NCBI RefSeq assembly: GCF_035046485.1
Contig: NC_085137.1
Location: 256,454,733-256,518,732, forward strand
Direction of reading: 5' to 3'
DNA: 64,000 nucleotides
DNA from: Aedes albopictus
Lineage: Eukaryota; Arthropoda; Insecta; Diptera; Culicidae
The notes beneath the pieces were generated by a model. That model did no database searches. It worked only from the letters and a program-made list of their open reading frames with translations, and had not been told where the DNA came from. Positions within the stretch are counted from its first letter, which is position 1; every line of letters begins with the position of its first letter. The position numbers and the translations under genes were made by a program. Below, one piece after another: positions 5,221 through 63,865 of this stretch.

Positions 5221-5271
5221 ATGTGCATGCAAAACTGAGCCGAAATCCAAAGTTTTGGTGCCCGGGAACCT

Positions 5272-6670: not shown

Positions 6671-6734
6671 AAATCACTTTGAAGTTTGTATGGGAGCGAT
6701 TTGTCGAATCACCCCTCGTCGCATTTTGTACTGG

Positions 6735-6900
6735 GCGGAGCTGTCAAGCAGTTCACGGTGTGTCTGGTGGACAACATTAATTTTAAAAAAATCGGTATCG
6801 CTAAGACACCCACCAAACGAAAGCTAAGGGTCCCCCTTTCATGTGAGACTTAAAGGAGAAAGTTCTATCTGCGGGTCTAGAACAATTTTTTTTTTGAAAA
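6735..6900 (+). repeat. Dispersed repeat, copy 1 (inverted relative to 9,635-9,785)
   Basis: The text from CACGGTGTGTCTGG through AATCGGTATCGCTAA to GTCTAGAACAATTTTTTT is a close reverse complement of 9,635-9,785, so a repeat family is present in both orientations 2.9 kb apart. No terminal duplications were identified. Confidence 0.6.
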
Positions 6901-7378
6901 AAGTTTTATATTTTTTCATTTTTTTCGAAGAACACATTTATGACAAAACACTGTTTTTCCATTGCAAGCATGATTTTCCGACGATATATTTTTATATTAT
7001 GTTTATTATTCTTCACATAAAAGCACAATAGTACCATGTGAATGGGAAATCCAGGCGATGACAGTTTTGTGTTTATGGACAGTGTGGTGAAAGTACTAGA
7101 ACATTGAGTATAAAATCGAGTGATATGCAGTTCCTTTGATTTCCAATCTAGATTCCAATAATGTGTTTGCATCCTATGACAGATGCATATACGTCTTTAG
7201 GGTCTCGTATTTGACTGGCACCAGCAGGTCACCAATCGACCACCTTTACAGCATATACCGTCATTTGGTTCTTCAGATTTGTGCTCTTGAAATTTCGGGG
7301 TGTGACTTCGTCATATATGCTCCTAAAACAGCTTCTCAACTTCAATGCGCGTCTGGTACTCAAGACACATGTTTTCTT

Positions 7379-10079: not shown

Positions 10080-11035
10080 TTCAGAAATCATTAGACAAAA
10101 ATGAATATGAAGTATGTAATACCAGGAGAAATTCCTGAAGGATGAGTTTTTGTTGAAATCTCTGGAAGAATTTTTGCTGGATTCATTGAATGAAATTATG
10201 AAAGAGATTGCGGAGGAATTCCTGCATTTATCCGCATGAATAAATGATTAAAATTTTCAAGAAATTTAAGTAAGCATTCTAAATGGAATTTAAGGAGTAT
10301 TTTTTTGCAGGAATTCATGGAGCAATTCGTAAAGAAATGCCTGATATGCTAATGCCCGTAATAGTTTGTAGAGGACCATTAGAAGAGTTAAAAAAACTTG
10401 GCAGAATATTTGAAGGAATCTCTGAAAAAGTTTCTTAAGGAATTTTTGGAGGAATTTCTGAAGAAATCTATGAATGGCATTCAGAAGAAAGCTTTGGAGA
10501 AATTTTGGATGAAGTCAATTGCAGATTTTCTAACGGAAAACCTGTAGAAATTTCTGAATTATTCCAAATTTATAATTTTATGGAGGAATTTATGAAGACA
10601 TTCATGAAAAGTTTTCTAGTGAAATTCTAGCAGAAATTTATGGATCAATCCCTAGTAAGCATGATACAGTTTCATATAAGATTTTATTTCAAAAATTCCT
10701 AGAAGAATTTCTGAAATAATTCATTCTCAGAGGGACTTCTGAAGGAATCCCTGAAGTGATTTCTAATGGAATCTCTACAGAATTTTTCATAGGAATCCAT
10801 GGAGGAATTACTAAAGAAATCTATTGAAGGGTTATTTAGTAATCCTTATACACATTTTTTGCAGGAATCCATTGAAGGAAATTATTAAATATCCATGTAT
10901 AAATGTCGAGAGGAATCCTTTGACTGATTCCTGAATAAATCCCTAGATAACTTCCTGAAAACCTCCCTGAAGGCATTTCTAAAGAGATTCTTCGATAATT
11001 TTCAGTAAGAATCTCCAGAAGAATTCTTTATTTGC
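10080..11035. repeat. Decayed 12-bp satellite (GAATTTCTGAAGGAATTC-type), left part
   Basis: Words such as GGAATTTCTGAAG, GAGGAATT and GAATCCCTGAAG recur throughout at roughly 12-bp intervals with heavy divergence. The same texture resumes at 14,770, directly after the 11,038-14,765 element, so one old array appears to have been split by that insertion. Confidence 0.6.
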
Positions 11036-11399: not shown

Positions 11400-12800
11400 A
11401 GAAGGGACCAGATATGAAAATGCATCAAACCCATGCATGCGGCACATCAAATCACGGCATTTTTGATTACCTGATGAGCGGTAAGCAGGAAAATAGTCTC
11501 AGACCATATCTGAACCGGTAATGTTCCGGAACCGGTACCGGGTGTCCCGCCGGAAGTGGCCAAATATACAAGTGAACCAAACCCATGCATGCGACACATC
11601 AAAGTACGGCATTTTCGATAACCTGATGAGTGGTAAGCAGGAAAATAGTCTCAGACCTATCTGAACCGGTAGTGTTCTGGAACCGGTTCTAGGCGTCCCA
11701 CTGGAAGTGGCCAAAAATACAATTGAACCAAGCGCATGCATGCGACACATCAAACCACGGCATTTTAGATAACCTGATGAGCGGTAAGCAGGAAAATTGT
11801 GGGCTTCGTGGCCGTGCGGCTAGCGGCGTCAGTCGTCTAGGCGTTTCGTAAGCCTCGGAGTGCGGGTTCGATTCCCGCTCCAGTCGGGGAAAACTTTTCG
11901 TCGAACGGAAAATTCTCCATTGGGCCACTGGGTGTTATGTGTGTTGTCCGTTGTCTCGTGTATGTAATGTTCAGTCTGTGCAGCCTCTGGCTGAAGACGG
12001 TGTAGTGTCTTTTAAAATAGTTTCAAACCATATTTGAACCGGTAGTGTTCCGGAACCGGTTCTAGGCGTTCCGCTGGAAGTGGCCAAATATACAATTGAA
12101 CCAAACCCATGCATGCGACACATCAAACCACGGCATTTTCGATGACCTGATGGACAATGAGCAGGAAAATCATCTCAGACCATATCTGAACCAGTAGTGT
12201 TCCGGAACCGGTTCCGGGGTTCCCGCAGAAGTGGCCAAATCTGAAAGAAAAACACATACCCGTACATGCGTCACATCAAATAGCGGCTTTTTGGATAACC
12301 TAATGAACAGCCAGCAATTGTTTCGGAATCGGTTTTGAGTGGCCGGAAGAGGCCAAATGTAAAAGTAAATCAAATCCAGGCATGTGACACATCAAACCGT
12401 GACTTTTGCGATAACCTGATGAACAGTTAGCAAAAAAATAGCCTTAGATCACACTAGAGACAACTGGTAGTATTCCGGAATTGGTTCCGAGAGTCCCGTC
12501 AAAATTGTCAAACCCTGCATGTGACACCTTCAATTTGCAGCGTTTTTGGTTAACCGATGAACAGTTAACAAGACAATAGTGTCAGACCATATTTGGTTCA
12601 GCCGGCAGTTATTGGGAATTAGATCCGGGTAGTAAAATGTAAAATTTAACCAAACCCATGGATGCGGTACATCAAACCACGACTTATCGACAACCTGATG
12701 GAAAAATAGGGTCAGACCAAATTAGATTCCCGGTAGTGTTGCGGGTTCGGCTGTGGCTTCGAAAAAGGTTAAAAGTAAAAGTGAAACAAACCCTTACATT
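11400..12800 (+). repeat. Tandem array, ~152-bp monomer (first part)
   Basis: Monomers share AACCGGTAGTGTTCCGGAAC, AAGTGGCCAAATATAC, CCAAACCCATGCATGCGAC and CCTGATGAGCGGTAAGCAGG. The CTGATGA word falls at 11,471, 11,623, 11,774 and 12,147, then about 12,299. Spacing is 151-153 bp once the inserted SINE at 11,798-12,013 is removed. Later monomers are more diverged. The array resumes after the hairpin element at 13,551-13,870. Confidence 0.85.
11798..12013 (+). mobile_element. tRNA-derived SINE inserted in the 152-bp array
   Basis: A 216-bp insertion flanked by an AAAAT duplication (11,793-11,797 and 12,014-12,018). It has a tRNA-like head with a B box (GGTTCGATTCC, about 11,866) and ends GACGGTGTAGTGTCTTTT. 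Removing the insert and one duplication restores exactly 152-bp monomer spacing, which supports the boundaries. A 5'-truncated relative is at 33,275-33,390. Confidence 0.85.
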
Positions 12801-14769: not shown

Positions 14770-15060
14770 ATAATTTTTAATATAAGATTTTGAGAGAATT
14801 GCTGGAGAAATTCTTTGAAATGTTTTTAAAGAAATTTCTTGAGAAAATTCTGAAATAGTTTTTGAAAGATTTGCTTAATGAAGCCCAGCAAAAAATCCGA
14901 AGAAATACCTGGTGAAATTTATGAAGAAATTCCCGAAATATTTTATTTGTTTGATGGGAATGAACAGCGTCGTCTGAATATTTTTCATTTAAAATACTTG
15001 TTAAAAACACTCTAAAATATGTCAATAAATAAGTTTCCAGTAATTTTCAGAGAAAAACTT
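14770..15060. repeat. Decayed 12-bp satellite, right part
   Basis: GAGAGAATTGCTGGAGAAAT and AAGAAATTTCTTGAGAAAAT type words mirror the decayed array at 10,080-11,035. Confidence 0.55.
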
Positions 15061-21780: not shown

Positions 21781-25150
<3,370 letters not shown>

Positions 25151-25204
25151 ATAATTTACTTATTTCAGCTTCAGAGGCACGCGCTTGTAATATTGTTTCC
25201 TTGA

Positions 25205-25984: not shown

Positions 25985-27172
25985 GTGAACAGCGTTCGCT
26001 AAATTCATCTCCTCAATTTGAGCCAGAGGAAGGAACGGCAAATCAGGCCCCAGCCAGGCGGAAAGCTGGGAAGGATGTGCCAGAAAAGGGTGACCCTTCC
26101 CGGAGGATGAGAACAAGGGATTGCGACCGTTGATAGGCCCTAAGCAACCACAGAGTACAAGGGGGAGGACCCTCCCCCTTGGACAAAGGTCGAAGCGGTG
26201 CTCTCACGTGCGTGTGATGCGACCATGCCTAGGCGAGTCCACCATAGAAATGGGAGGTAACCAGCTCACTGGTGGACCGACGCGATTGCGGACTTGCGCC
26301 GCGCCTGCTTACGAGCTAGGCGGCGGATGCAGCGAACACGATCAGAGGAAGAGCGAAACGAACGGGTGGTGTTCACCGCTGCAAAAGCCGTGCTTAAGAC
26401 TGAGATAAGAGCAAGCAAAAAGGCCTGCTTTGAGGGTCTCTGTCAGGGTGCCAATACGAAACCGTGGGGTGACGCCTACAGGATCGTTATGGTCAAGACG
26501 AGAGGTGTGATGGCTCCTACAGAGCAATCTCCAGAGATGTTGGAGGACTTTTTCCGCGTCATGATCCTAGTCCTTGGCCTCCTTTCGTAGGACAGCCAGG
26601 GACTGGGGCTGGCGATGAGGAGAGGGTCACCGATGTGGAACTTGCGGGGATAGCTAAGTCCCTTAGCGTAGGTAAGGCCCTAGGTCCGGACGGAGTTCCG
26701 AACCTGGCCTTAATATTGTCAGATTTCTTGAAACGTAAACACCGCACGGTCGTTAAAATGTTTCAAAAAGAGGCTTTGCACAAAAGTTCACGCGTTCTAT
26801 CATTTTCAAAAGGAACAGCCGCACCGCAGGAAAGGCCGCAATGTTATTCCCCATAAGGATGAAGTAAACAGGGAGTGAAAACTGCGGCTGTACCTTTCGG
26901 AAGCGATAGGCCGCGTGTACTTTTGTGCAAATCCCTCAATAGTAGCTATTGCAGAGGCTCCCGAGATGTTCAGGTCTGCTATGCAGAAATGCCTGGACGA
27001 GGGAGTTTTCCCAGAAGCTTGGTAGAGACAGAGCCTGGTACTATTGCCAAAGACGGGGAAACCACCCGGACACCCGTCGGTATATAGACCAATATGCTTG
27101 ATTGACACGGCGGGGAAGGTGCTCGAAAAGATCATGAATAGAATAGAATGTTGAGGTCCGCCGAGGGCGACA
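25985..27172 (+). pseudogene. R1-clade LINE: ORF1 remnant and pre-RT part of ORF2
   Basis: An ORF1-like proline- and lysine-rich tail (QAPARRKAGKDVPEKGDPSR, about 26,045-26,105) resembles the minus-strand copy at 32,740-32,900. The sequence then jumps to ORF2 between endonuclease and RT: LRRACLRARRRMQRTRSEEE (26,290-26,350), KPWGDAYRIVMVKTRGVMAP (26,460-26,520) and GKALGPDGVPNLAL (26,670-26,712). The endonuclease is missing, so an internal deletion of over 1 kb is inferred. Several frames are used. The pieces lead directly into the RT frame at 27,173. Confidence 0.7.
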
Positions 27173-28297
27173 ATGGTCTTTCGAGGCTTCCAGAAGGGGA
27201 GGTCCACCGTAGACGCTATCTTGTCGGTTACAAAAACCGCCGAGAAAGCACTCGAGCCTAAGAGGAGGGGAATTTGCTTTTGCGCGGTAGTGACTCTGGA
27301 TGTAAGGAATGCGTTTAATAGCGCCAGCTGGTCTGCTATTGCCGATGCGCTCTTGCGTCTGGGGATACCGGGGTACCTGTACAAGATTCTCGGAAGTTAC
27401 TTTCAGAATCGTGTACTAGTCTACGACACGGAGGTGGGTCGGAAGTGCTTTCACATAACCTCAGGAGTCCCGCAAGGTTTCATCCTGGGTCCGGTGTTAT
27501 GGAATGTCATGTACGACGAGGTGTTGAGGTTAGAGTACCCAGTGGGACTGGAGATTGTCGGATTTGCCGACGACATTACGCTCGAAGTCTACGGTGAAAC
27601 GATCGAGGAGGTGAAGTTGACTACCGACCACTCGATCAAGGTTGTGGAGGCGTGGATGCGATCCAGGAAACTGAAGCTGGCTCACCACAAGACAGAGGTG
27701 ACGGTTGTTAACAACCGAAAGTCGGAGCAGCAGACGCAGATCAGTGTAGGAGAGTGCACTATCCTGTCAAAGCGCTCCGTCAAACACTTGGGCGTGATGA
27801 TCGACGATAAGCTTACCTTCGGTAGTCACGTCGATTATGCCTGTAAAAGAGCCTCCACAGCTATTGCGGCCTCTATGGTCAAATGGCAGCGCGCGTGGGA
27901 CAGTTCCACCAAAGGAAGGTGGACCCATAGGTTCATACCGAGGGTAGATAGTTGGATTAATAGGCGCCATGGGGAAGTTACATTTTACCTGACACAGGTC
28001 CTTACAGGTCATGGTTGCTTCCGACAGTATCTACACTGTTTCAGGCATGCGGATTCTCCCGAATGCCCAGTGTGCAATGGTTTAGAGGAAACGGCGGAAC
28101 ACGTTTTGTTCGTGTGCCCGCGTTTTCGCACAATGCGTGACCGCATGCTTGCCACATGCGGGGAGGACACAAACCCGGACAACTTGGTCCAGAGGATGTG
28201 TAGGGATGAGTTTGGCTGGAACGCCGTTTCAACGGCTATCACTCATATCGTCTGGGAGCTACAGAGGAGGTGGCGCGTGGACTCGGAGAATGGCTAG
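27173..28297 (+). pseudogene. R1-clade LINE reverse transcriptase, internally deleted
   Basis: 374-codon open frame. It begins inside RT (FQKGRSTVDAI, residues 6-16) and continues with TLDVRNAFNSASW (about 43-55), then SGVPQGFILGPVLWN and the catalytic GFADDITLEV (FADD at 131-134). KHLGVMIDDKLTF follows, and the C-terminal zinc finger is C298-x2-C301-x8-H310-x4-C315. Near residue 234 the text passes straight from CKRASTAIAA to SMVKWQR. Relatives have roughly 110-130 residues there, so an in-frame deletion is inferred. The open frame survives, but the protein lacks its N-terminus and much of the post-RT region. The ATG used here is internal to RT and is not the original start. Confidence 0.8.
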
Positions 28298-34599: not shown

Positions 34600-35235
34600 G
34601 ATGGCGGCTTAGATTCCAAGATGGCTGTCAAAACTCCAGAATATATTTTTTTAACGGCAATGCTGCTTGCAATGCAATATGGGTATCTATCGATCGGGCT
34701 TCACAAGTAGAACTCAAAAATGAATATCCGACGCCATTTTGAAATCCAAGATGGCGGACCATATCCAATATGGCGGCCATGGAATGGTAGTTTGATCTAT
34801 AATACCATGCAATGTGGGTATCTATCGATCGGGCTTGATGAGTAGAAGTCAAAAATCGATATTTGACCCCATTTCGGAATCAAAGATGGCGGACCATATC
34901 CAAGATGGCGGCCATGGAATGGTAGTTTGAGCTACGATACCGTGCAATATGGGTATCTATCGATCGGGCATAATGAGTAGATGTAAAAAATCGATATTTA
35001 ACGCCATTTTGAAATTCAAGATGGCGGACCATATCCAAGATGGCGGCCACGGAATGGTAGTTTGAGCTATGATACTATGCAGTATGGGTATCTATCGATC
35101 GGGCTTCACAAGTAGAACTCAAAAATGAATATCCGACGCCATTTTGAAATCCAAGATGGTGGCCACGGAATGGTAGTTTTAGCTATAATATCATGCAATA
35201 TGGGTATCTACCGATCGGGCTTTATGAGACACAGG
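34600..35235. repeat. Tandem array, ~135-bp monomer
   Basis: Monomers share CAAGATGGCGGACCATATCC, GGAATGGTAGTTTGAGCTA and GGGTATCTATCGATCGGGC. The GGGTATCTA word falls at about 34,681, 34,815, 34,951, 35,086 and 35,202, giving steps of 134-136 bp then a shorter last unit. Confidence 0.9.
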
Positions 35236-35579: not shown

Positions 35580-36360
35580 CTTTTTTAAGATGCCTTCAGG
35601 AATTCTTTTCAGGATTTCTTCAGGCATTCTTTTCGAGAATCTTCCCAGGTTTATTCCCGGGATTCCTTCAGATATTGCTTCTGAGATTGCTGTATGAATT
35701 GCTCCGGAGTTCTCTTCAGGGATTTTTGCAGGGATTGCTTTGGAAAATGCTGAAAGGATTCTGTTAGTTATTCTTCTCTGAATTCTTTCAGGGATTTGTG
35801 CTGGAATTCCTTCAAAGATTCCTTCCAGGATTCATGCTGTTATTCCTTAAAAGATTCACCCCGAAAAAAAATATAAAAAATATATGTTTTTTCCGAGATT
35901 GTTTTCAGGCAATCCTAGAGCATAGAGACATCTTCTATGGTTCTTGCAGGAAAGCCTGCTCAGCTTCTGGCCGGCATGCCTGTCATGATCTCTCTAAGGA
36001 TTCCATCAGGTATTCTTTACGGGATTCCTTCAGGAATAACTTCAGGGATTTCTGCCAGAATTGCTTTGGGAAATCATGAAAGGATTCTTTCAGAAATTTT
36101 ACCCAGCATTCTTTCATTTTTTAGTATACTTAGTATACTTAGTATACTTTAGTATACTGTCGAAACATATTCAGAGAATCCTAATGGAATTCTTTCTATG
36201 AGACGGGATCCTCGCTCGGGATTTATACAGCAATTCCTCCCGGGATTTCTTCTGTGACTTTTTCAGGGATTCCCACCAAGCTTTCAGTTGAGATTCCCTC
36301 AGAACTCTACCAGATATGCCTCTCAGAATTCCTTCTGTAAATCCTCCCGGGATTCCTTCG
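35580..36360. repeat. Decayed GGGATTCCTTCAGG-type satellite
   Basis: TTCAGGGATT, GGGATTCCTTCAGG and TTCCTCCCGGGATT words recur with heavy divergence. This resembles the 12-bp satellite family seen elsewhere. A short AGTATACTT tandem lies at 36,122-36,158. Confidence 0.6.
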
Positions 36361-41608: not shown

Positions 41609-42872
41609 ACTAGTTTATGATTTTTTCTGACGTTTCGGTCCTAATGGGCGTAGCGTGGCTCAAAATGCCACATGTCAAAAAGTTCGTTGGGCCCCCTTCT
41701 TATTTCGTTCTATATGACAAAACGATGCTCAGGTCAAATTTTCAGCTCAATCCGTTAACATTTGGGCGGTGTTAAACTCATTTGAAGTTTGTATGGAAGT
41801 CTAAATGGGAAAACATCGTTTCTTTGCATTTTCTCGTGAGGGGCACTATATTTTCATGAATCACATAACCGTTTATAAAGCACTATAGCCTGATAAACCG
41901 AATCCGGAACACTACCGGTAGTTTTAAATGCGGTCTGAGCCAATTTTCTTGCTAATCGTTTTTCGGGTTATCGAAAAAGTCACAATGTGATGTATGGCAT
42001 GCATGGGTTAGGATCACTTTTTCATTTGGCCACATCTAACGGGACACCCGGAACTGATTCAGGGACAGTATCGATTATCCCTTATATGGCTTTATACTAC
42101 TTTCTAGCTAACTGTTCATCAGATTCCCTAAAAAGCCATGAATTGATGCGTCTAACGGATGGGTTTGGATCATTTTTGCATTTAACCACTTCTGGCGTAA
42201 CAACTGAATCGGTTTTGGAACACTACCGATATTGTCTAACGTGGTCTGAGCCTATTTTCTTGCTAACCGTTCATCAACCCTGACACCCTAGATCGGTTCC
42301 GGAACACTATCGGTAGTATTTAAAAAGATCTTAGATGTGGTCTGAGCCTATTTACTTGCTAATCGTTCATCACGTTTTTTTTTAAAAGCCGCTGTTTTAT
42401 GTGCCGGGTTTGGTTCTCTTTTACATTTGACCATATCTGGCGGGACATCTGGAACCGGTTCCGGAACACTATCGGTTGTTCCAAATATGGTCTGAAACTA
42501 TTTTCTTGCTAAACGTTTATCAGGTTGCCTAAAGAACCGCGATTTTATGCGTCGCATCTAAGGATTTGGTTAACTTTTATACTTGGCTATTTCTGGCGGG
42601 ACATCTGGAACCGGTTCTGTAACACTACTGGTTCAAATATGGTCTGAGAATGTTTTCCTGTCAACTGTTCATCAGGTTATCGAAAAAGGCGCTGTTTGAT
42701 ATGCCGCATGAATGGGTTTAGTTCACTTTCAAATTTGGCCACTTCCGGTGGGACACCCGGAACCGGTTCCGGAACACTAGCGGTTCAGTTATGGTCTGAG
42801 ACTATTTTCCTGCTTACCGTTCATCAGGTTATCGAAAATGTCGCGGTTTGATGTGTCGAATGCATGGGTTTG

Positions 42873-43499: not shown

Positions 43500-44848
43500 G
43501 CTCGTGAGTGACCCTTGAGCGGCTTCCTTTTGGCAGTGCTGAGGGTTCTAGAATATTCTATTCAGATTTATTGTTGAATATTCTGGGTGCTTTCCGAGGT
43601 GCTATAGAAGGCGCCCTTTTGTGTACTAGGAAACAGTTTAATGTGACACAGACACCACAGCTGACGGTCAAGAAGTATCCGTGAAAAGTGGGAATTATTT
43701 TGAGCTTCTAAAGGCTCGAACTAGTGTAAATAGTGTATAGCTTTCACGTGACCGCAACAAATCGAAGTGGAAAGTGAATAAGGCGCTCGATAAAAAGTAC
43801 ATCACTATGGAATTTCCGCGGAAATAAACTCGCTGTTTGATGCATTTGGAGTCTCTAACATTTGGTTCTTCGAGCCCTGTATTCCGTGACATGCCGAGAT
43901 CCTGCTTGCGAGATATTTTCTTGCCCAGAAACAAGAGGATCCAGGTTGAGGTACTGCGGTGCCTCAATAGACAGTCCCAGCCTAGTATTCGTTGCCACTG
44001 GTCTTCAGTGCCGTTCTTCTCCACATCCTCCTTCAGGTGCACCATTTGGCAGGTCTTCAGTTGGTTATCTGATAGCACTGCCTGTTTCGGTAGATCTACC
44101 CAGAACGCGTGAGATAGCTTCCTCCGATCACACTCCAATTGACTTTGAATCCAGGTTCTTTCTGGAAATCGATCAAGCTAGCTAAATGATTGCAAGATCT
44201 CGCTGTGTGAGGTGGCACTCATGTACAGTGCAAGATATTGATACCAATCTATATCAGCGTGACTCTTGCACGGTTCGGTTCGTATTCGTGGTAGCTGTGT
44301 TTATATGCACAAAAAGCTACGAAAATCGTTCAAGTGGTATAAAGAATGTAAAAATACTAATTTTTCATGAGCCGGGAAGAAATTTGGCGTGATTGAAATG
44401 AAATCAATCTAGAGTGCGTTGCTGCGATGTCTTCAATAGCTGTCAAACCACCACAGCTTGGCAAGACAAAGTTTGCCGGGACAGCTAGTATATGATACAA
44501 ATTAACCCTTCAGCGCGCGCCGATGTAAAAAGTACAACACTACCAAAAAAACCTCGCTCGTTGTATACAGTGCGAGCGCGGTGCAGTTTCAGCTGCTTGA
44601 TGGCGCGCGTCCTGGAAGGTTAAGGAAACTTTCAAAAGCATTCTACTCTCTCGCTTGTGACTTGGCTCGTAGCTTAGTGGGTGTCAATGTACGGATTATG
44701 GGCATCACACAGGGCAAATAGCAGGTTGTAGTCGTTCTGCGGTTGTCGCAACGTGAGTCACTTTGTACTTATCAGATGGATCCTCCTGGACAGACTCTGA
44801 CCTCTGTAGATAACTCGATGCTTAGCAGCGCTAATCGACAACACTGTT
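43500..44848. other. Unassigned sequence
   Basis: A 147-codon minus-strand open frame (44,138-43,695) has ordinary amino-acid composition (LPKQAVLSDNQLKTC) but no motif I recognise. It might be decayed retrotransposon gag. Near 44,505-44,620 is a TTAACCCTTCAGCGCGCG block, which resembles text at 62,850-62,940. Confidence 0.35.
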
Positions 44849-45252
44849 TGTTCGGGCTGCATCCTGACAGCTCGAAGAATTTTTTGAACGTGATTTATTA
44901 CCCGATTGCTGCGATGGATTTTGCAACGCATCGAGTCACAGCCGACGAGAGAGGGAGATGGATTCAACGCGCCCGACGCGCCAAGGGCGCGCCGTCGAGA
45001 AGAGGATTTGGCGCGCACGAAGCGCGCAGAGAGCAAGTTTTTCAGAATTGAATTGGCGTTCGTCGCGAACGGTTTATATACTCGATTTTTGTTAATTGCT
45101 AGTTAATTTAAATGTAGAGAAAAAGTGAATATAGTTTGTTAACCAAAGCTAAGTGCCTTTAAGTGAAGACCATTAAAATTCCTCCGAAATTCCCCGTGGT
45201 TCCGCTCCGTTAAGTTGTTCCGTCGTGGTCGATACAGTCCGCTAACCGTACA
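44849..45252 (+). repeat. 5' LTR of BEL/Pao element (404 bp)
   Basis: Starts TGTTCGGGCTGC and ends CGTACA. Contains a TATATA box-like word at 45,075-45,080 and an ATTAAA word at 45,172-45,177, plausible promoter and polyadenylation signals. A GC-rich segment lies near 44,970-45,040. The LTR appears identical to 59,402-59,805. Confidence 0.95.
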
Positions 45253-45642: not shown

Positions 45643-45820
45643 ATGACGAAGCACAAGAGCAAGGATAAAGCTCCACCATCTGCAGCAGAAAACCAGCAAA
45701 CCCCCAGCGTGAAGAAGGATAAGAAGCAAACCAACCTAGAAGCAGCGATGGCGCAGGCGGAGCAGCTAAGCGTTCTCGTTCACCGTCGCGGGTTGGCAAA
45801 AGGTAAGCTCACGAGATTAT
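45643..45820 (+). pseudogene. BEL/Pao gag-pol, 5' stub before the insert
   Basis: The first 59 codons of the element's polyprotein start at the ATG 390 bp after the 5' LTR. The stub is lysine- and glutamine-rich (MTKHKSKDKAPPSAAENQ), as expected for a gag N-terminus. The frame is cut at the TAT target duplication (45,818-45,820), then reads 63 more codons into the insert before a stop at 46,009-46,011. 178 bases before the insert and 74 between the insert and the ATG at 54,334 total 252. The two parts are therefore in the same frame, with no stop between them outside the insert. Confidence 0.85.
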
Positions 45821-45846
45821 GGGGGCTATTTTATAACTCGAGTCGA
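45821..45846 (+). repeat. Left terminal inverted repeat (26 bp) of foldback element
   Basis: Exact reverse complement of 54,231-54,256. It starts with five G residues directly after the TAT duplication. Confidence 0.95.
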
Positions 45847-46029
45847 TTAATTCGGGTCGTCTGCTATCACTGTCGAGTCGAGCAGAAAAGCGATCACAGA
45901 AACCGACCAGCTCGACAGTCGACAGCAGAAGAGTGGTCGATTCGCGATTTTGACATATTACTGAGAGGAATTTTGTTTACACAAGCTTTTTACGAGCGGC
46001 CGCGTCGTTGAATGTTGGTGTCTGCGGCA

Positions 46030-46862
46030 AACATGTCCAGCTGGGTGATGCGTGTCTAGTAGTGGCATGTGGATCCGGCCAACCCAATCTGGTCCTGTAG
46101 CGGGCATCGAAATTACACCCGCGGGGACCTGGATCGTGAACATTTCGGCCAGGGCACCAAAACCAGGCATGCGAAGGCTCTGTCTACACGATTTTTTATA
46201 AGTATTCATCTTCTTGGTAACCGTAAAACGTCAAATGGCCTCCTTGGCCAACCATTGGTCAACCCATGGCCACCGGAATGTGCTCTACAAAAGCCTATTT
46301 CGAGGACGTTTTGGCCATACGGTCAAAACTAGAAATGCGACGGCTCTTTCTTCATGATTTTTCATATCGATCATTTCAGTAACCATGAAAAGGTCTAATG
46401 GTCTTCCTTATCAACTCGTGGCCCCTGAAATATACCCTGGAGGAACCTGTTCCGAGGACCTTTGGACCATGGTGCCAAATTTAGGCATGCGACGGCTCTA
46501 TCTTCATGCTTTTTTATATCCATCATCTTGATTACCGTAAAAAGGTTCAATGTCCTCCCTGGCCAATCGAAATGCGTCCTGAAGGTGCTTTTTTCGTGAA
46601 CGCCAAAACCAGGCATGCGACGGTCTATTTTCTTGATTATTTATATTAATTATCTTTTTTTCCTCCCCGCTGTTAGGGCAATCAAGCCACTACATATAAT
46701 AAGCTGAACTTTTGTGACATCCATCATCCATAAAAAGGACCAATGGCCAGGCGACTGTGGTCATCCCGTGGCCATAAGAATGTGACCTGGAGAAATCTGT
46801 TTCGAGGACGTTCAGGCCATGGAGCCAGAACTACGCATGTGACGGCTCTATTTTCATGAATT
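46030..46862 (+). repeat. ~130-225-bp tandem modules, left arm
   Basis: The GGCATGCGACGGCTCT-like word recurs near 46,167, 46,333, 46,482, 46,609 and 46,834. Between them are CATCATCTTG-TAACCGTAAAA, CCTCCTTGGCCAA, CCCATGGCCACCGGAATGTG and TTCGAGGACGTT blocks. Units vary in length and divergence. An inverted relative is at 53,545-53,840. Confidence 0.75.
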
Positions 46863-47119
46863 TTCCTCTCTGGTCCTCCAGAAATTCCGCCAGGAATTCC
46901 TCCGGAAATTCCTCCAGGAATTCCTCCGGAAATTCCTCCAGGAATTCCTCTAGAAATTCTTCGAGGAATTCCTCCAGGAATTCCTCCGGGAATTCCTACA
47001 GGAATTCCTCTAGTAGTTACTCCAGAAATTCCAGTAGGAAATCCTTCAGAATTTCTCCGAAAGTTCCTCTAAGAATTTCTCCAAAAATTCCTCTAGGAAT
47101 TTCTCCAGAAATTCCTCTA

Positions 47120-48790
47120 GGAATTTATCCAGAAATTCCTCTAGGAATTCGTTCAGAAATTCCTCTAGGAATTTGTTCAAAAATTCCTCTAGGAATTTGT
47201 TCAGAAATTCCTCTAGGATTTTTTTCCAGAAATTCCTCTAGGATTTTTTTCCAGAAATTCCTCTAGGATTTTTTTCCAGAAATTCCTCTAGGAATTTCTC
47301 CAGAAATTCCTCTAGGAATTTCTCCAGAAATTACTCTAGGAATTTCTCCAGAAATTCCTCTAGGAATTTCTCCAGAAATTCCTCTGGGAATTTCTCCAGA
47401 AATTCCTCTGGGAATTTCTCCAGAAATTCCTCTAGGAATTTCTCCAGAAATTCCTCCAGAAATTTCTCCAGAAATTCCTCTAGGAATTTCTTCAGAAATT
47501 CCTCTAGGAATTTCTCCAGAAATTCCTCTAGGAATTTCTCCAGAAATTCCTCTAGAAATTTAACCAGGAAACCCTCTAGAAATTTCTCTAGAAATTCCTC
47601 TAGGAATTTCCTCAGAAATTCCTTTAGGAATTTTCCCAGAAATTCCTCTAGGAATTGCTCCAGACATTCTTCTAGTCATTTCTCCAGAAATTCCTCTAGG
47701 AATTCCTCCAGAAATTCCTCTAGGAATTTGTTCAAAAATTCCTCTAGGAATTTGTTCAGAAATTCCTCTAGGATTTTTTTTCCAGAAATTCCTCTAGGAT
47801 TTTTTTCCAGAAATTCCTCTAGGATTTTTTTCCAGAAATTCCTCTAGGAATTTCTCCAGAAATTCCTCTAGGAATTTCTCCAGAAATTACTCTAGGAATT
47901 TCTCCAGAAATTCCTCTAGGAATTTCTCCAGAAATTCCTCTGGGAATTTCTCCAGAAATTCCTCTAGGAATTTCTCCAGAAATTCCTCCAGAAATTTCTC
48001 CAGAAATTCCTCTAGGAATTTCTTCAGAAATTCCTCTAGGAATTTCTCCAAAAATTCCTCTAGGAATTTCTCCAGAAATTCCTCTAGAAATTTAACCAGG
48101 AAACCCTCTAGAAATTTCTCTAGAAATTCCTCTAGGAATTTCCTCAGAAATTCCTTTAGGAATTTTCCCAGAAATTCCTCTAGGAATTGCTCCAGACATT
48201 CTTCTAGTCATTTCTCCAGAAATTCCTCTAGGAATTCGTTCAGAAATTCCTCTAGGAATTTGTTCAAAAATTCCTCTAGGAATTTGTTCAGAAATTCCTC
48301 TAGGATTTTTTTCCAGAAATTCCTCTAGGATTTTTTTCCAGAAATTCCTCTAGGATTTTTTTCCAGAAATTCCTCTAGGAATTTCTCCAGAAATTCCTCT
48401 AGGAATTTCTCCAGAAATTACTCTAGGAATTTCTCCAGAAATTCCTCTAGGAATTTCTCCAGAAATTCCTCTGGGAATTTCTCCAGAAATTCCTCCAGAA
48501 ATTTCTCCAGAAATTCCTCTAGGAATTTCTCCAGAAATTCCTCCAGAAATTTCTCCAGAAATTCCTCTAGGAATTTCTTCAGAAATTCCTCTAGGAATTT
48601 CTCCAGAAATTCCTCTAGGAATTTCTCCAGAAATTCCTCTAGAAATTTAACCAGGAAACCCTCTAGAAATTTCTCTAGAAATTCCTCTAGGAATTTCCTC
48701 AGAAATTCCTTTAGGAATTTTCCCAGAAATTCCTCTAGGAATTGCTCCAGACATTCTTCTAGTCATTTCTCCAGAAATTCCTCTAGGAAT
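47120..48790 (+). repeat. Higher-order repeat, three copies of ~532-555 bp
   Basis: A block with GGAATTTGTTCAAAAATTCC, repeated GGATTTTTTTCCAG, TTTAACCAGGAAACCCTCTA and CAGACATTCTTCTAGTCATT occurs three times. The last word starts at 47,661, 48,193 and 48,748. Confidence 0.85.
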
Positions 48791-50928
48791 TCCTCCAGAA
48801 ATTTCCTTCGGTATTTCTCCAGCAATATCTTTAGGAATTCCTGTATAATTCATCCGGAAATTTCGCTAGGAATTCCTCCGGAAATTCCTCCAGTAATTTG
48901 TCCACAAAATCCTCTAGGAATTCCTCCAGAATTCCTCAAGGAATTCCTCCACAAATTCATCTAGAGATTCCTCCAGATTTCTTCCAGAAATTCCTCCAGG
49001 AATTCCTACATAATTCTTCAAGGAATTCCTCCGTTAACTTCTCTAGGAATTCCTCCGAAAATTCCTCTAGAAATTCCTCTGGAAATTTCTCTGGAAACTT
49101 CTCTAGGAATTCCTCTGGAAATTTCTTTGGAAATTTCTCTAGGAATTCCTCCTGGAATATCTCTGGATATATCCCTAGGAATTCCTCCAGAGGAATATTC
49201 GGAAGAATTCCTAGAGGAATTTCTGGAGGAAATCTGGATGAAACCCTGGAGGAATTTTTGGAGAAATACCTTGAGGAATTCCTCCGGAAATTCCTGCAGC
49301 AATTCCTCCAGGAATTCATCCGGAAATTCCTCCGGAAATTCCTCCAGAAATTCCTCCAGAAACTCCTCCGGAAATTCTTCCGAGAATTCCTCTGGAAATT
49401 CGTTCAGGAAATGTTCCGGAAATTCCTCCAGGAATTCCTCCAGAAATTCCGCCGGAAATTCCTGCAGGAATTCCTCCGGAAATTCCTGCAGGAATTCCTC
49501 CAGCAATTCCTCCAGGAATTCCTCTAGAAATTCTTCAAGGAAATCCTCCTGAAATTCCTCTAGTAATTCCTCCAGAAATTCCAGTAGGAATTTCTCCAGA
49601 AATGTCTCTGGAAATTCCTACAGAAATTACTCTGGAAATTCCTCCAGAAATTCCACTAGGCAATTCTCCAGAAGTTCTTCTTGGAATTTGTCCGAAAATT
49701 CCTAGAGGAATTTCTAGAGAAATTCCAAGATGAATTTCTGGAGGAATTTCTAGAGGAATTTCTGAAGGAATTCCTGGAGGAATTTCTGGAGGAATTACTA
49801 AAGAAATTCCTAAAGGAATTCCAAGAGGAATTTCTGGAGAAATTTCCGGAGGAATTCCTGGACGAATACCTACAGGAAATCCTGGAGGAATTCTTCCGGC
49901 AATTCCTCTTGGAATTCCTCTGGCAATTCCTCTAGGAATTCCTCCAGCAATTCCTCTGGGAATTCCTCCAGCAATTCCTCTAGGAATTCCTCCAGGAATT
50001 CCTATAGGAATTTCTCTAGGAATTCCTCTAGGAATTCCTCTAGGAATTCTTCCAGGAATTCCTCTAGGAATTCTTCCAGGAATTCCTCTAGGAATTCCTT
50101 CTAGGAATTCCTTTAGAAATTCCTCCAGGAATTCCTCTAGGAATTCCTCTAGGAACTCCTCCGGAAATTCCTTCAGGATTTCCTCTAGGAATTCCTTCAG
50201 GAATTCCTCCGGAAATTCCTCCACAAATTCCTCTAGGAATTCCTTTAGGAATTCCTCTAGTAATTCCTCCAGAAATTCCTCAAGGAATTCCTCTAGAAAT
50301 TCTTCCAGAAATTCATCTTGGAATTTCTCTAGAAATTCCTCTAAGAATTTTCGGAGAAATTCCTAGAAGAATTTCTGGAGAAATGCCCAGAGGAATTTTT
50401 GGAGGAATTTAAATTATTGAAGGAATTTCTGGAGGAATTCCTTGAAGAATTTTAAGAGGAATTGCTGGAGGAATTCGTGGAGGAATTCCTGCAGAAATTT
50501 CCGTCGGAACTTCTGGAGGAATTCCTGGAGGAATTTCCAGAGGAATTCTCGGAAGAAATTCCGGAGGAATTTCTGGAGGAATTTCAGGAGGAATTTCAGG
50601 AGGAATTTCAGATGGAATTTCTGGAGAAATTCCCGGAGGAAGTGCTGCAGGAATTTCCAGAGGAATTCCTCAAGGTATTTCTCCACAAATTCCTTTAAGG
50701 GTTTCATCCAGAATTCCCCCAGAAATTCCTCTAGGAATTCTTAGGGGAATTCCTAGAGAAGTTTCCAGAGAAATTTCCAGAGGAATTTCTAGAGGAATAT
50801 TCGGAGGAATTCCTAGACAATTTAACGGAGGAATTTCTTGAGGAATGATGTTGGAATTCCTGGAGGAATTTCTGGAAGAATTCTGGAGGAATTTGGGAGG
50901 AATCTCTAGAAGAATTTGTGGAGGAATT

Positions 50929-51265
50929 CCTTGCGGAGTTCTGGAGGAATCTCTAGAGGAATTTGTGGATAAATTACTGGAGGAATTTCCGGAGGATTTC
51001 CTAGCGAAATTTCCGGAGGAATTCCTAGAGAAATTCCTGGTTAAATTTCTAGAGGAATTTTTGGAGAAGTTCCTAGAGGAATGTTTGGAGAAATTCCTTG
51101 CGGAGTTCTGGAGGAATTCCTAGAGGAATTTGTGGATAAATTACTGGAGGAATTTCCGGAGGAATTCCTAGCGAAATTTCCGGAGGAATTCCTAGAGAAA
51201 TTCATGGTTAAATTTCTAGAGGAATTTTTGGAGAAGTTCCTAGAGGAATGTTTGGAGAAATTCCT
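50929..51265 (-). repeat. Higher-order duplication, ~167-bp unit
   Basis: TTGCGGAGTTCTGGAGGAAT starts at 50,931 and again at 51,098. The following ~160 bp (AATTTGTGGATAAATTACTG, GGTTAAATTTCTAGAGG) are nearly the same. Confidence 0.8.
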
Positions 51266-53544
51266 AGAGGAATTTTTTGGAGAAATTCCTAGAGGAATTT
51301 CTGGGAATTCTTAGAGGAATTTCTGGGAAATTCGTAGAGGAATTTCTGGAGAAATTCCTTGAGGAATTCCTGGTGAAATTTCCAGAGGAATTTCTGGAGA
51401 AATTCGTAGAGGAATTTTTGGAGAAATTCCTAGAGGAATTTCTGGAGAAATTCCTAGAGGAATTTCTGGAGAAATTCCTAGAGGAGTTTCTGGAGAAATT
51501 CCTAGAGGAGTTTCTGGAGAAATTCCTAGAGGAGTTTCTGGAGAAATTCCTAGAAGAATTGCTTCAGAAATTTCTTGAGGAATTTCTGGATTGATTTTCA
51601 GATGAATTTCTGGGAAATTCTTAGATGAATTTCTGGAGAAATTCCTAGAGGAATTCTTAGAGGAATTTCTAGAGGAATTTCTGGAGAGGAAATTCTTAGA
51701 GAAATTTCTGGAGGAATGTAGGAGAATTTCCTAGAGGAATTTCTGGGGAAATTTCTTGAGGAATTTTTGGAGAAATTCTTAGAGGAATTTCTGGAGAAAT
51801 TTCTGAGGAAATTCCTAGAGGAATTTCTGAAGATTTTCCTAGAGGAATTTTTGGAGAAATTCCTAGAGGAATTCCTGGTTAAATTTCTAGAGGAACTACT
51901 GGGGAAATTCCTAGATGAATTTTTGAAGATATTCCTAGAGGAATTTCTGGGAAATTCTTAGGGGAATTTCTGGGAAATTCGTAGAGGAATTTCTAGTGGA
52001 ATTTCTGGAGAAATTTGTAGAGGAATTTCTGGAGGTATTCCTGGAAGAATTGCTAGTGGAATTCCTGGAGGAATTCCTAGAGATATTCTGGGGGAATTCC
52101 TAGAGGAATTTCTGGAGAAATTCCTAGAGGAATTTCTGGAGGAATTCCTAGATAATTTTCTGGAGGAATTCATAGAGGAATTGCTGGAGGAATTCCTAGA
52201 GGAATTGCTGGAGGAATTCCTAGAGGAATTCCTGGAGGAATTCCTAGAGGAACTCCTGGAGGAATTCCTAAAGGAATTCCTGGAGGAATTCCTAAAGGAA
52301 TTCCTGGAGGAATTCCTAAAGGAATTCTTGGAGGAATTCCTGGAGTGTAGAAATTCCCTGAGGATTGAGGAATTCCTGGAAAAATTTTCAGAGGGATTTC
52401 TGGGAAACTCTTAGACGAATTTCTGGAGAAACTCCAAGAGGAATTTCTAGTGAAATTTCTGGAGAAATTCGTAGAGGAATTTCTGGAGGTATTCCTGGAG
52501 GAATTGCTAGTGAAATTCCTGGAGGAATTCCTAGAGATATTCTGGGGGAATTCCTAGAGGAATTTCTGGAGGAATTCCTAGAGGAATTTCTGGAGGAATT
52601 CCTAGAAGATTTTCTGGAGGAATTCCTAGAGGAATTACTGGAGGAATTCCTAGAGGAATTGTTGGAGGAATTCCTAGAGGAATTGCTGGAGGAATTCCTA
52701 GAGGAATTCCTGGAGGAATTCCTGAAGGAATTCCTGGAAAAATTCCTGGAGTAATTCCTGTAGGAATTCTCAGAGGAATTCTTGTAGGAATTCCTGTAGG
52801 AATTACTGGAGGAATTCCTAGAGGAATTACTGGAGGAATTCCTAGAGGAATTTCTGGAGGAATTCCTGGAGGAATTTCTGGAGGAGTTTCTCGAGGAATT
52901 CCTAGAGAAGTTCCTGGAGGTATTCCTAAAGGAGTTCCTGGAGGAATTCCTAGAGGAATTTCTGGAGGAATTCCTGGAGGAATTTTTAGAGGAGTTTCTC
53001 GAGGAATTCCTAGAGAAGTTCCTGGAGGTATTCCTAGAGGAGTTTCTTGATTAATTCATAGAGGAGTTCCTTGAGGAATTCCTAGAGGAGTTCCTGGAGG
53101 TATTGTTAGAGGAGTTCCTTGAGGAATTCCTAGAGGAGTTCCTTGAGGATTTCCTAGAGAAGTTCCTTGAGGAATTCCTAGATGAGCTCCTGGAGGAATT
53201 CCTAGAGGAGTTCCTGAAGGAATTCCTAGAACAATTCCTAGAGGAACTTTTCAAGGAATTCCTTGAGGAATTTTCAGAGGAATTCTCAGAGGAATTGCCG
53301 GAGGAGTTCCTAGAGGAATTATGTAGGAATTCCTAGAGGAATATCTGGAGGAATTCCTAGAGAAATTTTTGGAGGAATTCTGGAGGAATCCCTAGTGGAA
53401 TTTCTGGAGGAATTCCTTAAGTATAATCGGTTCATTCCGACGCAATTTCTGGTTTCAGTTTCTTAGATGCCTGCAGTCGAAGAATCAGGTTTTGATCACC
53501 TAAACACAGGATAAACATAAAAAGATAGAAGATCTGACGCTATG

Positions 53545-53840
53545 GTCAAAGCGTTCTCGGAGCAGGCTCCTCCAGAGCATATTCCGGTGGCCACGGGTTC
53601 ACCAGGGTGGCCGTTGGTTCGCTAAGATGATGGATATGATGAATCATCAAGAAAGAGCCGCCGCATGCCTAGCTTTGGTGTCCTGACCAAGGCGGCCTTG
53701 ATTGAATGCCAAGGTTTCCGCGGGAGCCATTCCGACACTCGCGACAGGACCAGATCGGGTTGGTCGGTTCTACATGTCCACTACCAACCAAGCTACCAAA
53801 CACTCATAATCAGCTGGACATTTTTGCCTAATACACCAAT
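53545..53840 (-). repeat. Inverted module of the right arm
   Basis: Reverse complement of left-arm text: GAGCCGCCGCATGCC, GGTGGCCACGGGTTCACC, ATTCCGGTGGCC, GACAGGACCAGATCGGGTTG and CAGCTGGACAT correspond to blocks at 46,030-46,300. This is the main evidence that the arms are inverted copies beyond the 26-bp tips. Confidence 0.75.
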
Positions 53841-54230
53841 ATGCTATCTAGTACTGCAACCATAATTTAAAGCGTATGCCGTGTACTGAATACCCGACGC
53901 GATCGCTCGTGTATCTCTTTTTGGCGCGACTGATGGAGGGTTTAAAACGGATTCCAATGAATATTCTAGAGTAGTTTTACTAATAAAATGCAAAAAAAAA
54001 TCCCTACGCGCACAAAGCCATGCTGTTGGTAAAAATTCAAAATTTCACATCAATCTGTCTGATCGCTGTGCGCAGCAGGCACTGATTGCTGTGCGATGAC
54101 AGGTGGCCGACCGTTTTCATCGAGTCGTTTTAGTGAGTCGAGCATTCGTTGTGCTAGACTATTTCCTCGACATCCAGCGACTAACTCGTTTTGTATAATT
54201 CGACAACTATCGAGTCACATGAAATTACGG

Positions 54231-54256
54231 TCGACTCGAGTTATAAAATAGCCCCC
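54231..54256 (-). repeat. Right terminal inverted repeat (26 bp) of foldback element
   Basis: Exact complement of the left tip, followed by TAT (54,257-54,259) and resumption of the retrotransposon gag frame at 54,260. Confidence 0.95.
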
Positions 54257-54259
54257 TAT

Positions 54260-59401: not shown

Positions 59402-59805
59402 TGTTCGGGCTGCATCCTGACAGCTCGAAGAATTTTTTGAACGTGATTTATTACCCGATTGCTGCGATGGATTTTGCAACGCATCGAGTCACAGCCGACG
59501 AGAGAGGGAGATGGATTCAACGCGCCCGACGCGCCAAGGGCGCGCCGTCGAGAAGAGGATTTGGCGCGCACGAAGCGCGCAGAGAGCAAGTTTTTCAGAA
59601 TTGAATTGGCGTTCGTCGCGAACGGTTTATATACTCGATTTTTGTTAATTGCTAGTTAATTTAAATGTAGAGAAAAAGTGAATATAGTTTGTTAACCAAA
59701 GCTAAGTGCCTTTAAGTGAAGACCATTAAAATTCCTCCGAAATTCCCCGTGGTTCCGCTCCGTTAAGTTGTTCCGTCGTGGTCGATACAGTCCGCTAACC
59801 GTACA
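59402..59805 (+). repeat. 3' LTR of BEL/Pao element (404 bp)
   Basis: Same length and, by eye, same sequence as the 5' LTR. Followed by CTGTT, the second copy of the target duplication. Confidence 0.95.
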
Positions 59806-59810
59806 CTGTT

Positions 59811-62084: not shown

Positions 62085-63865
62085 CTAGTCAACCTCGTCG
62101 ACGGTTGCTTCGATCCAATCCTGGTAATCGGCGAGCTTGACGTAGATGCCAGGAATCATACCTCCGCACTGCTCTGGGCCCAAGCTGACAAGCCCCACTT
62201 GATACCAGCGAGCGCGAGAGGAAGAATCTGCTGATGCTTGGGCCATCATCAGTGGACCGCCGGAATCTCCACGACAGGAGTCCTTGCCGGGATCCCCTCC
62301 TACGCAGAGCTGTGATGGAGAGAGGTCTACACGAATTTGTTTGTAGATTTTTTCGCAAACTGACGCATTTCTCAGTGGAATTTCGATAGGTCGTTTTTGA
62401 CGGGACATTTGATCTAAAAGAAAAAAAAATACGATGCTTGAAGAGTTGTTCTAGAATACAGATTGATTGATTGATTATATGCTTATATATAGCTCCCCCA
62501 AACCGACGCGACTGTCGCCGGCGACAGCGATTTTTCACGTGAGTGAACATTGAAGCCGCGCATCGAATCTTCAAAAGCACATATTGAAAAAACCGAACAA
62601 CGCTTTGCGCTGAAAATTTGAACGGTTCATTACTCACTGGTGATTATTTATCTATAAAATTTTCAGCGTGATTGAATGTTTAATTTTTTTCCATTTGTGC
62701 TTTTGAAAATGCAAGGCTCGGCTCCGATGAATCTTCGCCTGCAAAATCGCTGTCGCGGTCAAAAATCGCGTTGGTTTGGGACAACCTTAACTCAGGTCAA
62801 ATATCTTCGCAATGGCACATGCCAATAAAAAAAATCCTTCTAGGTTAACCCTCAAGCGATCGCGCATTGTATTTTGTACAACACGTTGAAAAAATCTCGC
62901 TTTTTCAACTCAGCGTGAGAGTGATGTTGGCGGTGGTGGTGGTCATCCGCGCGACTGACGAAAGGTTAGCCAGGTCCTTTCAGGCATAGGACACAATAAT
63001 CGAAGGCTCCGTTTCGGATTAGGCCTTTAACTTGATTTATCTATATGGATAAAACCCTAAACCCAAGGGTTGCTTACCTGCTTCCGGAGGACCCTTGGAA
63101 AATATGGTAAACATTTGTCCTTCTATCAGTGAACTAAGTTGATCTTCTTCGCGGATCAAGCATATAGGCTGCACAAAATTGTCGAATTCTACTTTATCAG
63201 CCAGCTTCAATAGGGCAACATCATGATGCTTGTTCAGGTCAAACCGATTGTAGTTAGGGTAAACTATGATCCGAAGAATTTCGTAGTCCTTGTAGCTCAC
63301 ATCTCTTCTCACTCTAATACTGTACCTGAAAATAATGTTTTGATTGTTCTTATCTGATTTTCCTGTAAGCGGCAGCTACTCACGGTTTCAATATAAACTG
63401 CAAATCTACAATACAGTGTGCCACTGTTAGCGCGTATTGACTGCTGATCAATGAACCGGTGCATCTCTGGGAGAATGTTTTCTTCTTCACGCGATAAACG
63501 ATGCTCACGACCCACGGAAACGATCTGTGCTCCGAGTTACTCAAAGCTTGCCCACATTTCTCCGAATTTCGCCACCTAGGACAGCACACCAGAGGCGTAG
63601 AATCAGAGGCATGGTCGCACTCACTCCGTTGAAGTGCGTCACCAACGACCATAGCCTTCGACAAGATCCACTGGCAATTAGTCACCGGAACACATTTTCC
63701 TTGCAATCCGTCAATCGTCCGGCATGGGATATACGCACCTACGAAGAAACACGCAATCAATAAACTATTCCTTCCAGTACATTCCAACTATTCTCACACA
63801 CGCATCGATCCAACGAATCCGATAGTGCATATCAACCAAATATAGAACAAGCGACTTAAAGCCAT
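62085..63865 (-). CDS. CLIP-domain serine protease (CLIPB-like), four exons
   Basis: Exons on the minus strand: 63,865-63,802, 63,738-63,384, 63,325-63,078 and 62,413-62,085. All introns are GT-AG and phases agree, giving 331 residues. Residues 1-20 form a signal peptide (MALSRLFYIWLICTIGFVGS). The clip domain has six cysteines (27, 37, 43, 62, 73, 74). The protease domain has H129 (TVAHC), D175 (HHDVALL) and S273 (GKDSCRGDSGGP). D267 at the specificity pocket implies trypsin-like cleavage after Arg/Lys. Family members act in secreted immune or developmental cascades. Oddities: only ten residues separate C83-G84 from FPW, so the usual R-(I/V)VGG activation site is missing, and the conserved GWG is replaced by SKG (216-218). 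It may be a divergent non-activatable protein or an early pseudogene. Confidence 0.85.
62494..62785. mobile_element. Intronic MITE in the protease gene
   Basis: The inverted ends CCCAAACCGACGCG (62,497-62,510) and CGCGTTGGTTTGGG (62,767-62,780) continue with mirrored CGACAGCGATTTT and TTTTCAAAAGCACA blocks. It lies in intron 3 (62,414-63,077). No coding capacity; duplication not identified. Confidence 0.75.

Follow-up and report, generated by a model that had tools for sequence, protein, structure and literature searches.

How satellite arrays come to be scattered through genomes is an old question, and one stretch of the Aedes albopictus genome raises it in a concrete form. The window analysed here, a stretch of 64,000 nucleotides (NCBI RefSeq assembly GCF_035046485.1, contig NC_085137.1, positions 256,454,733 to 256,518,732 of the forward strand), holds a kilobase-long satellite enclosed between two inverted tips, and the question is whether this array grew where it stands or was brought in as part of something mobile. 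A preliminary description of the locus, made from the letters alone, had proposed one transposable unit that carries a satellite. In this study, we provide evidence that the 8.4-kb unit very probably belongs, as a recent insertion of full length, to a large non-autonomous foldback-type terminal inverted repeat (TIR) DNA transposon family, moved in trans. The kilobase array demonstrably arrived inside one transposon, at a site of which five natural empty versions exist and within a host element whose age leaves no time for the array to have diverged in place. The parts of the unit and of the element that it interrupts are as follows; positions are coordinates of the 64-kb window, and L-numbers in the text denote other genomic loci of the family.

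44849-45252, + strand: 5' long terminal repeat (LTR) of the BEL/Pao element that hosts the unit, with the host duplication CTGTT at 44844-44848
45818-45820, no strand: left copy of the target-site duplication (TSD) TAT; a single TAT stands here in five other host copies
45821-45846, + strand: left 26-bp TIR, a 26-mer with 99 exact copies in the genome
45847-46011, + strand: left outer flanking domain (165 bp), absent from the right end; apart from the tip, left-right matches begin at left position 192
46012-46873, + strand: left array of diverged ~165-bp modules, irregular, seen as self matches; the module number differs among copies
46874-49180, + strand: 12/24-bp satellite in + orientation
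47169-48795, + strand: a ~540-bp block in triplicate (marker positions 47559, 48091 and 48646; the span is that of the stretches compared around the markers)
49181-50350, no strand: satellite core of mixed orientation
50351-53414, - strand: 12/24-bp satellite in - orientation, which aligns inverted with the left satellite at 81% over 2.2 kb
53415-53529: stretch between the satellite and the right modules, with no match in the left-right or self comparison
53530-53842, - strand: right modules, opposite in orientation to those on the left
53843-54230, - strand: right outer flanking domain, absent from the left end
54231-54256, - strand: right 26-bp TIR
54257-54259, no strand: right copy of the TSD TAT
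59402-59805, + strand: 3' LTR of the host element, with the host duplication CTGTT at 59806-59810

The unit lies within a BEL/Pao element in whose body the Pao peptidase (PF05380) was found. The two LTRs of this host are identical (404/404) and its 5-bp duplication CTGTT is intact; with no difference at 404 sites, the insertion is probably recent. Genome searches were made in the window's own assembly (1.344 Gb, 1,494 contigs), where the 120-bp left flank of the unit as query returned seven places, namely the window, five others that match it along its full length and one that matches only part of it. Natural empty sites, which the preliminary description had suggested looking for, were found at all five other whole-flank places, in each of which the left flank runs through a single TAT straight into the right flank, with 0 or 1 mismatch over the next 40 bases. 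Neighbouring satellite units in the window copy are only 70-82% alike according to Tandem Repeats Finder (TRF), while the host LTRs are identical, suggesting that the array is older than its insertion here.

The comparison of tips and flanks bore out the outline first described: the unit measures 8,436 bp (45821-54256), its inverted tips match over exactly 26 bp (26/26), and TAT flanks it on both sides. With up to three mismatches allowed, the 26-bp tip has only its two matches in the window (mean 0.00 in 100 shuffles). Inverted modules of about 165 bp were indeed present inside both tips, as had been reported. The left array is irregular, with self matches of 69-80%, a clearest offset of 166 bp and other offsets that would put the unit at about 128-175 bp. 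The right set is shorter and inverted with respect to it; between the arm consensuses, left 192-657 aligns inverted with right 415-876 at 70.6%. The satellite, with periods of 12, 24 and 48 bp, spans 46874-53414. The claim that it changes orientation at the centre stood only in part, because the outer arms are opposed (inverted match 81.0% over 2.2 kb, direct-orientation match 67-68%), but there is no single central flip: the array reads + from 46.88 to 49.18 kb, then -, +, -, + to about 50.35 kb, and then - to 53.41 kb, that is, about five switches. One clean dyad in the satellite core was thus rejected.

The preliminary description had named the absence of further copies with these tips as the outcome that would count against it. 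That outcome did not come about: the assembly contains 99 exact matches to the 26-bp tip, against 0 for its reversed control, and 34 convergent pairs among them span 5,015-20,573 bp (median 7,797 bp); family copies are present on all three large contigs. The first 200 bp of the unit gave 40 scored places among 140 candidates (93-100% identity) and the last 200 bp gave 40 among 85 (95-100%), which combine into 30 convergent pairs of 5.0-20.0 kb. A 17-bp form of the tip occurs 109 times (control 0); among the 100 places listed, the other nine being equal in number to the 26-bp tips beyond the list's end, two further convergent pairs come from it, 9.8 kb and 3.27 kb (L081) in length, for a total of 36. 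The shorter of these two (L081, G000:C2:381477524-381480910) is a diverged relative with identical 17-bp tips, a TAA duplication and a satellite about 68% alike, from which it follows that the association of tip and satellite is old. The first 16 tip bases followed by any base but C occur twice (reversed control 1), and no second family sharing these 16 bases was seen in the assembly. At G000:C1:5139902-5140029, two 17-bp tips share one strand, with 111 bp between them. The tip was absent from viral contigs (0 matches) and, in four short forms, from open-licence paper texts, a scope outside which Repbase, Dfam and TEfam lie; no title or abstract opening describing such a family was found in the same open-licence literature.

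Of the 39 left-end places outside the window, 20 were examined to see whether the satellite moves with the element, and 13 of these 20 had a right tip within 10 kb. The outer left satellite is in + orientation in 21/21 copies, the window copy included, and the outer right satellite is in - orientation in all 13 copies tested, a count that omits L022 and seven copies not read to the end. These long inverted arms of tandem repeats, opposed in every copy counted and 81% alike in the window, are the features by which we class the family as putatively of foldback type. Copy-specific satellite 22-mers stand in a common order, since all 66 pairs of 12 copies exceed all 100 shuffles (median pair 86% in order, lowest 62%), indicating that the satellite moved with the element. 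Together with the empty sites, this upholds the proposal of one transposable unit carrying a satellite that did not grow in place, with the amendment that the array also changes in length within the element. The further suggestion of a vehicle for spreading satellite DNA holds insofar as copies of the element contain dozens of arrays dispersed through the genome.

Among 31 copies with both flanks known, 29 carry an exact 3-bp duplication (mean 4.9 and maximum 15 in 100,000 shuffles of the right flanks), and duplication lengths of 2, 4 and 5 bp fit three, one and one copies of the same set, respectively. With two of three further copies and L081 (1/1), the total comes to 32 of 35; the preliminary description had advised looking for TAT-like 3-bp duplications at other copies. 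With strands pooled, the 29 duplications comprise TAA (11), ATA (10), GTA (3), AAA (2), CTA (1), GAA (1) and AAT (1), the middle base being A or T in 29/29, and an AT-rich palindromic target, roughly AA-Y-TWA-R-TT, is preferred. Length, middle base and palindromic target, as well as a tip that starts with G and is shorter than 60 bp, make a non-autonomous element of the PIF/Harbinger type a possibility to be taken seriously, although we would rate it below an even chance. For this superfamily, a 3-bp TWA target has been given as defining, with TIRs mostly below 60 bp and a first nucleotide that is usually A or G (PMC4482050). The present element agrees in its TIR (26 bp, starting GGGGG) and in TSD length, but it is not filed in PIF/Harbinger because TWA holds in only 11 of the 29 duplications; also, no Harbinger transposase was seen with these tips among the 15 of 36 tip pairs read whole.

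Helitrons, by comparison, are of rolling-circle type and have neither TIR nor TSD, both of which are present here, and P-type elements make TSDs of 7-8 bp. Galileo, a foldback-like element with long repeat-bearing arms, belongs to this P superfamily, and its TSD is longer than the 3 bp found here. Miniature inverted-repeat transposable elements (MITEs) are short, under about 600 bp, and the shortest of the 36 exact tip pairs measures 3,267 bp; no short derivative was found among these 36 exact 17-bp tip pairs, a survey of exact tips alone with changed tips outside it. CACTA elements are defined by a CACTA core in their tips (PMC1636069), and the tip here begins GGGGGCTATTTT. The element seems to behave like a cut-and-paste TIR element.

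The open reading frames (ORFs) of foreign segments within the copies are retroelement-like or without Pfam match, with one exception in L020. Three such segments were considered as a lost transposase and rejected. The insert of L011 (element positions 3288-7184) lies in the satellite between identical direct repeats of 682 bp and is on that account LTR-like, its 880-aa ORF having no Pfam match; the segment in L022 has RVT_1 and GIY-YIG ORFs, which we take to be Penelope-like; and that in L021 holds a piece of Pao peptidase. In a subset of 16 other ORFs scanned, from L012, L020, L021, L025, L043, L044 and L081, 14 had no Pfam match, the exceptions being the Pao peptidase piece in L021 and a THAP piece in L020. 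The latter is a 174-aa ORF (locus positions 1777-2298, + strand) with a THAP domain (PF05485, E 1.1e-10) that directly adjoins the satellite and extends into it, and may be either a relic of the partner enzyme or a chance neighbour, hence a lead. It raises the alternative of a THAP-domain transposon as partner, comparable to Galileo in the P superfamily, which we regard as improbable: the stretch is nearly unique in the genome, with one other match (111 bp at 87%) at none of the listed tip pairs, and the right end of L020 is not in view, so that the ORF may stand there by chance. The sequence past the satellite in L020 had no match in the 20 other copies, and the THAP piece was found beside the satellite in L020 only, where no transposase core was seen. 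The longer TSDs of P-type elements speak against this partner. Galileo has both a THAP transposase and a foldback form, to judge from titles cited in PMC4079207.

A different history would have a small TIR element insert first and its satellite grow later, independently in each copy. Arrays do grow inside the element, as is shown by the ~540-bp block, of which the window copy has three versions, 96.7-99.4% identical to each other, and whose marker occurs once each in 10 of 20 other copies and is absent as an exact word from the other 10. Moreover, satellites align less well than arms. The left arms are 0.7-3.7% from their consensus (18 copies; L017, L018 and L021 dropped) and the right arms 1.3-2.2% (11 copies; L010, L022, L024 and seven open ones dropped). 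Independent growth is nevertheless very unlikely, as it accounts neither for copy-specific words in the same order in every copy pair nor for diverged satellite units between identical host LTRs, and the 36 exact 17-bp tip pairs are all at least 3.2 kb long, with no satellite-free founder seen (copies with changed tips lie outside this count). Arrays are thus carried along when the unit moves, and their length is not constant. Module number differs among copies as well, and one module deletion is common to L019 and L025 and another, at a different site, to L021 and L028, which suggests that altered forms of the element moved again.

The satellite might even be a working part rather than mere cargo, its opposed arms being needed for transposition or persistence. 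We consider this rather unlikely, while noting what speaks for it, namely the length of all exact pairs, the same starting orientation in 21/21 copies and the presence of satellite even in the diverged L081. If it were true, selection on the transposon would maintain the satellite, possibly via a THAP-type repeat-binding transposase of which the L020 piece may be a relic. Because the arrival of its arrays is known and replicated, the family lends itself to measuring how satellites grow, are lost and invert.

Tetris, FB and Muta1 are the closest known systems. Drosophila FB elements have long inverted arms of short tandem repeats, and they differ from the present element in their 9-bp TSD, against 3 bp here, and in their tips, just as had been noted at the outset. 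Known foldback elements whose arms are built of repeats include FB, and most, with exceptions, are of Mutator type (PMC4079207). Tetris of Drosophila virilis, as described there, is a non-autonomous foldback with an outer flanking domain, a ~220-bp tandem-repeat array, an inner domain and a middle, its repeat number varies and it is connected with satellite DNA; in contrast to the present family, it is placed in Mutator with a TSD of 8-10 bp, its arms reach 1.7 kb, only three copies are structurally complete, and its satellite derives from the arm modules, whereas here a separate kilobase 12/24-bp satellite lies inside the copies (PMC4079207). Muta1, a Mutator-like element (MULE) of Aedes aegypti, is described as a type-2 foldback in which a 12-bp subterminal repeat occurs nine times, and the MULEs of that species have many non-autonomous derivatives, but its TSD is 8-9 bp, its TIR is 145 bp, and a kilobase satellite is not part of the description given (PMC5225508). 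In architecture, a Mutator-type foldback like Muta1 or Tetris is therefore alike (PMC5225508, PMC4079207), yet such an origin is highly improbable for the present family, because the duplication is exactly 3 bp in 32/35 copies as against 8-10 bp in these elements. TIR elements and Helitrons carrying tandem arrays are also known: the Xenopus MITEs Xstir and miDNA4 (the latter of Tc1/mariner type) hold tandem repeats inside a TIR element, although their arms are not opposed satellite, and Helitron/Helentron elements disperse central arrays, also in differing orientations (PMC12628747). ATon of Aedes aegypti is likewise a non-autonomous TIR element without known autonomous partner, but it inserts at the dinucleotide AT rather than with a 3-bp TSD and is under 500 bp, and its text does not contain the term 'tandem repeat' (PMC3422177). 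What is new here is the combination of satellite arms of kilobase length and a 3-bp duplication with dozens of copies that are intact and a recent insertion for which empty sites exist. In the foldbacks described in the papers cited, the duplication measures 8-10 bp (PMC4079207, PMC5225508), in contrast to the 3 bp of the present design.

As to an assembly artefact, or a mis-join that placed satellite between unrelated tips, satellites of kilobase length are difficult to assemble and the array length may be some units off, but we rejected it as barely conceivable, because a mis-join would not yield an exact 3-bp duplication plus exact empty sites at five other host copies, and 21 copies on three large contigs show one common layout.

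For the foldback-type transposon family moved in trans, we propose that a transposase supplied from elsewhere would recognise the tips and move the whole unit by cut-and-paste, inserting it into AT-rich targets cut with a stagger of 3 bp and carrying satellite and modules along. Between moves, block duplication and deletion, by unequal exchange or slippage, would alter the numbers of satellite blocks and modules, and the changed versions could transpose onward. Several observations weigh against this account. No transposase was recognised and no autonomous partner identified, with 15 of 36 tip pairs read whole, and excision was not seen among the loci examined. Three of the 35 copies are without exact duplication, namely L024, whose right tip is decayed, L047/L048 and L078/L080, and L020 consists mostly of foreign sequence, with little satellite near the left arm and its right end not seen. 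The identity of the host LTRs could stem from conversion, which qualifies the greater age of the array, and the shared module deletions could have arisen twice by exchange between the same modules. Finally, a Mantel test of satellite against arm distance in 11 copies was not significant (rho 0.31, 612 of 5,000 permutations as high), and detailed co-descent of arrays and arms is for this reason unproven.

Elsewhere in the window, degenerate satellite-like pieces without element tips lie at 5768-5886, 10404-11025, 14787-14934 and 35686-35824, and are perhaps remnants of older satellite or of other carriers. A tetranucleotide TACT array of 3.4 kb occupies 21781-25162 (845 copies, 99% pure), two arrays of 151-152-bp units, reverse complements by eye, stand 30 kb apart at 11426-11797 and 42406-42872, and a 135-bp unit is repeated 3.6 times at 34672-35159. 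The window also contains a reverse transcriptase ORF (RVT_1) at 27155-28294 (+ strand), presumably of non-LTR type, and coding pieces of a CLIP-domain/trypsin-type serine protease at 62085-63787 (- strand).

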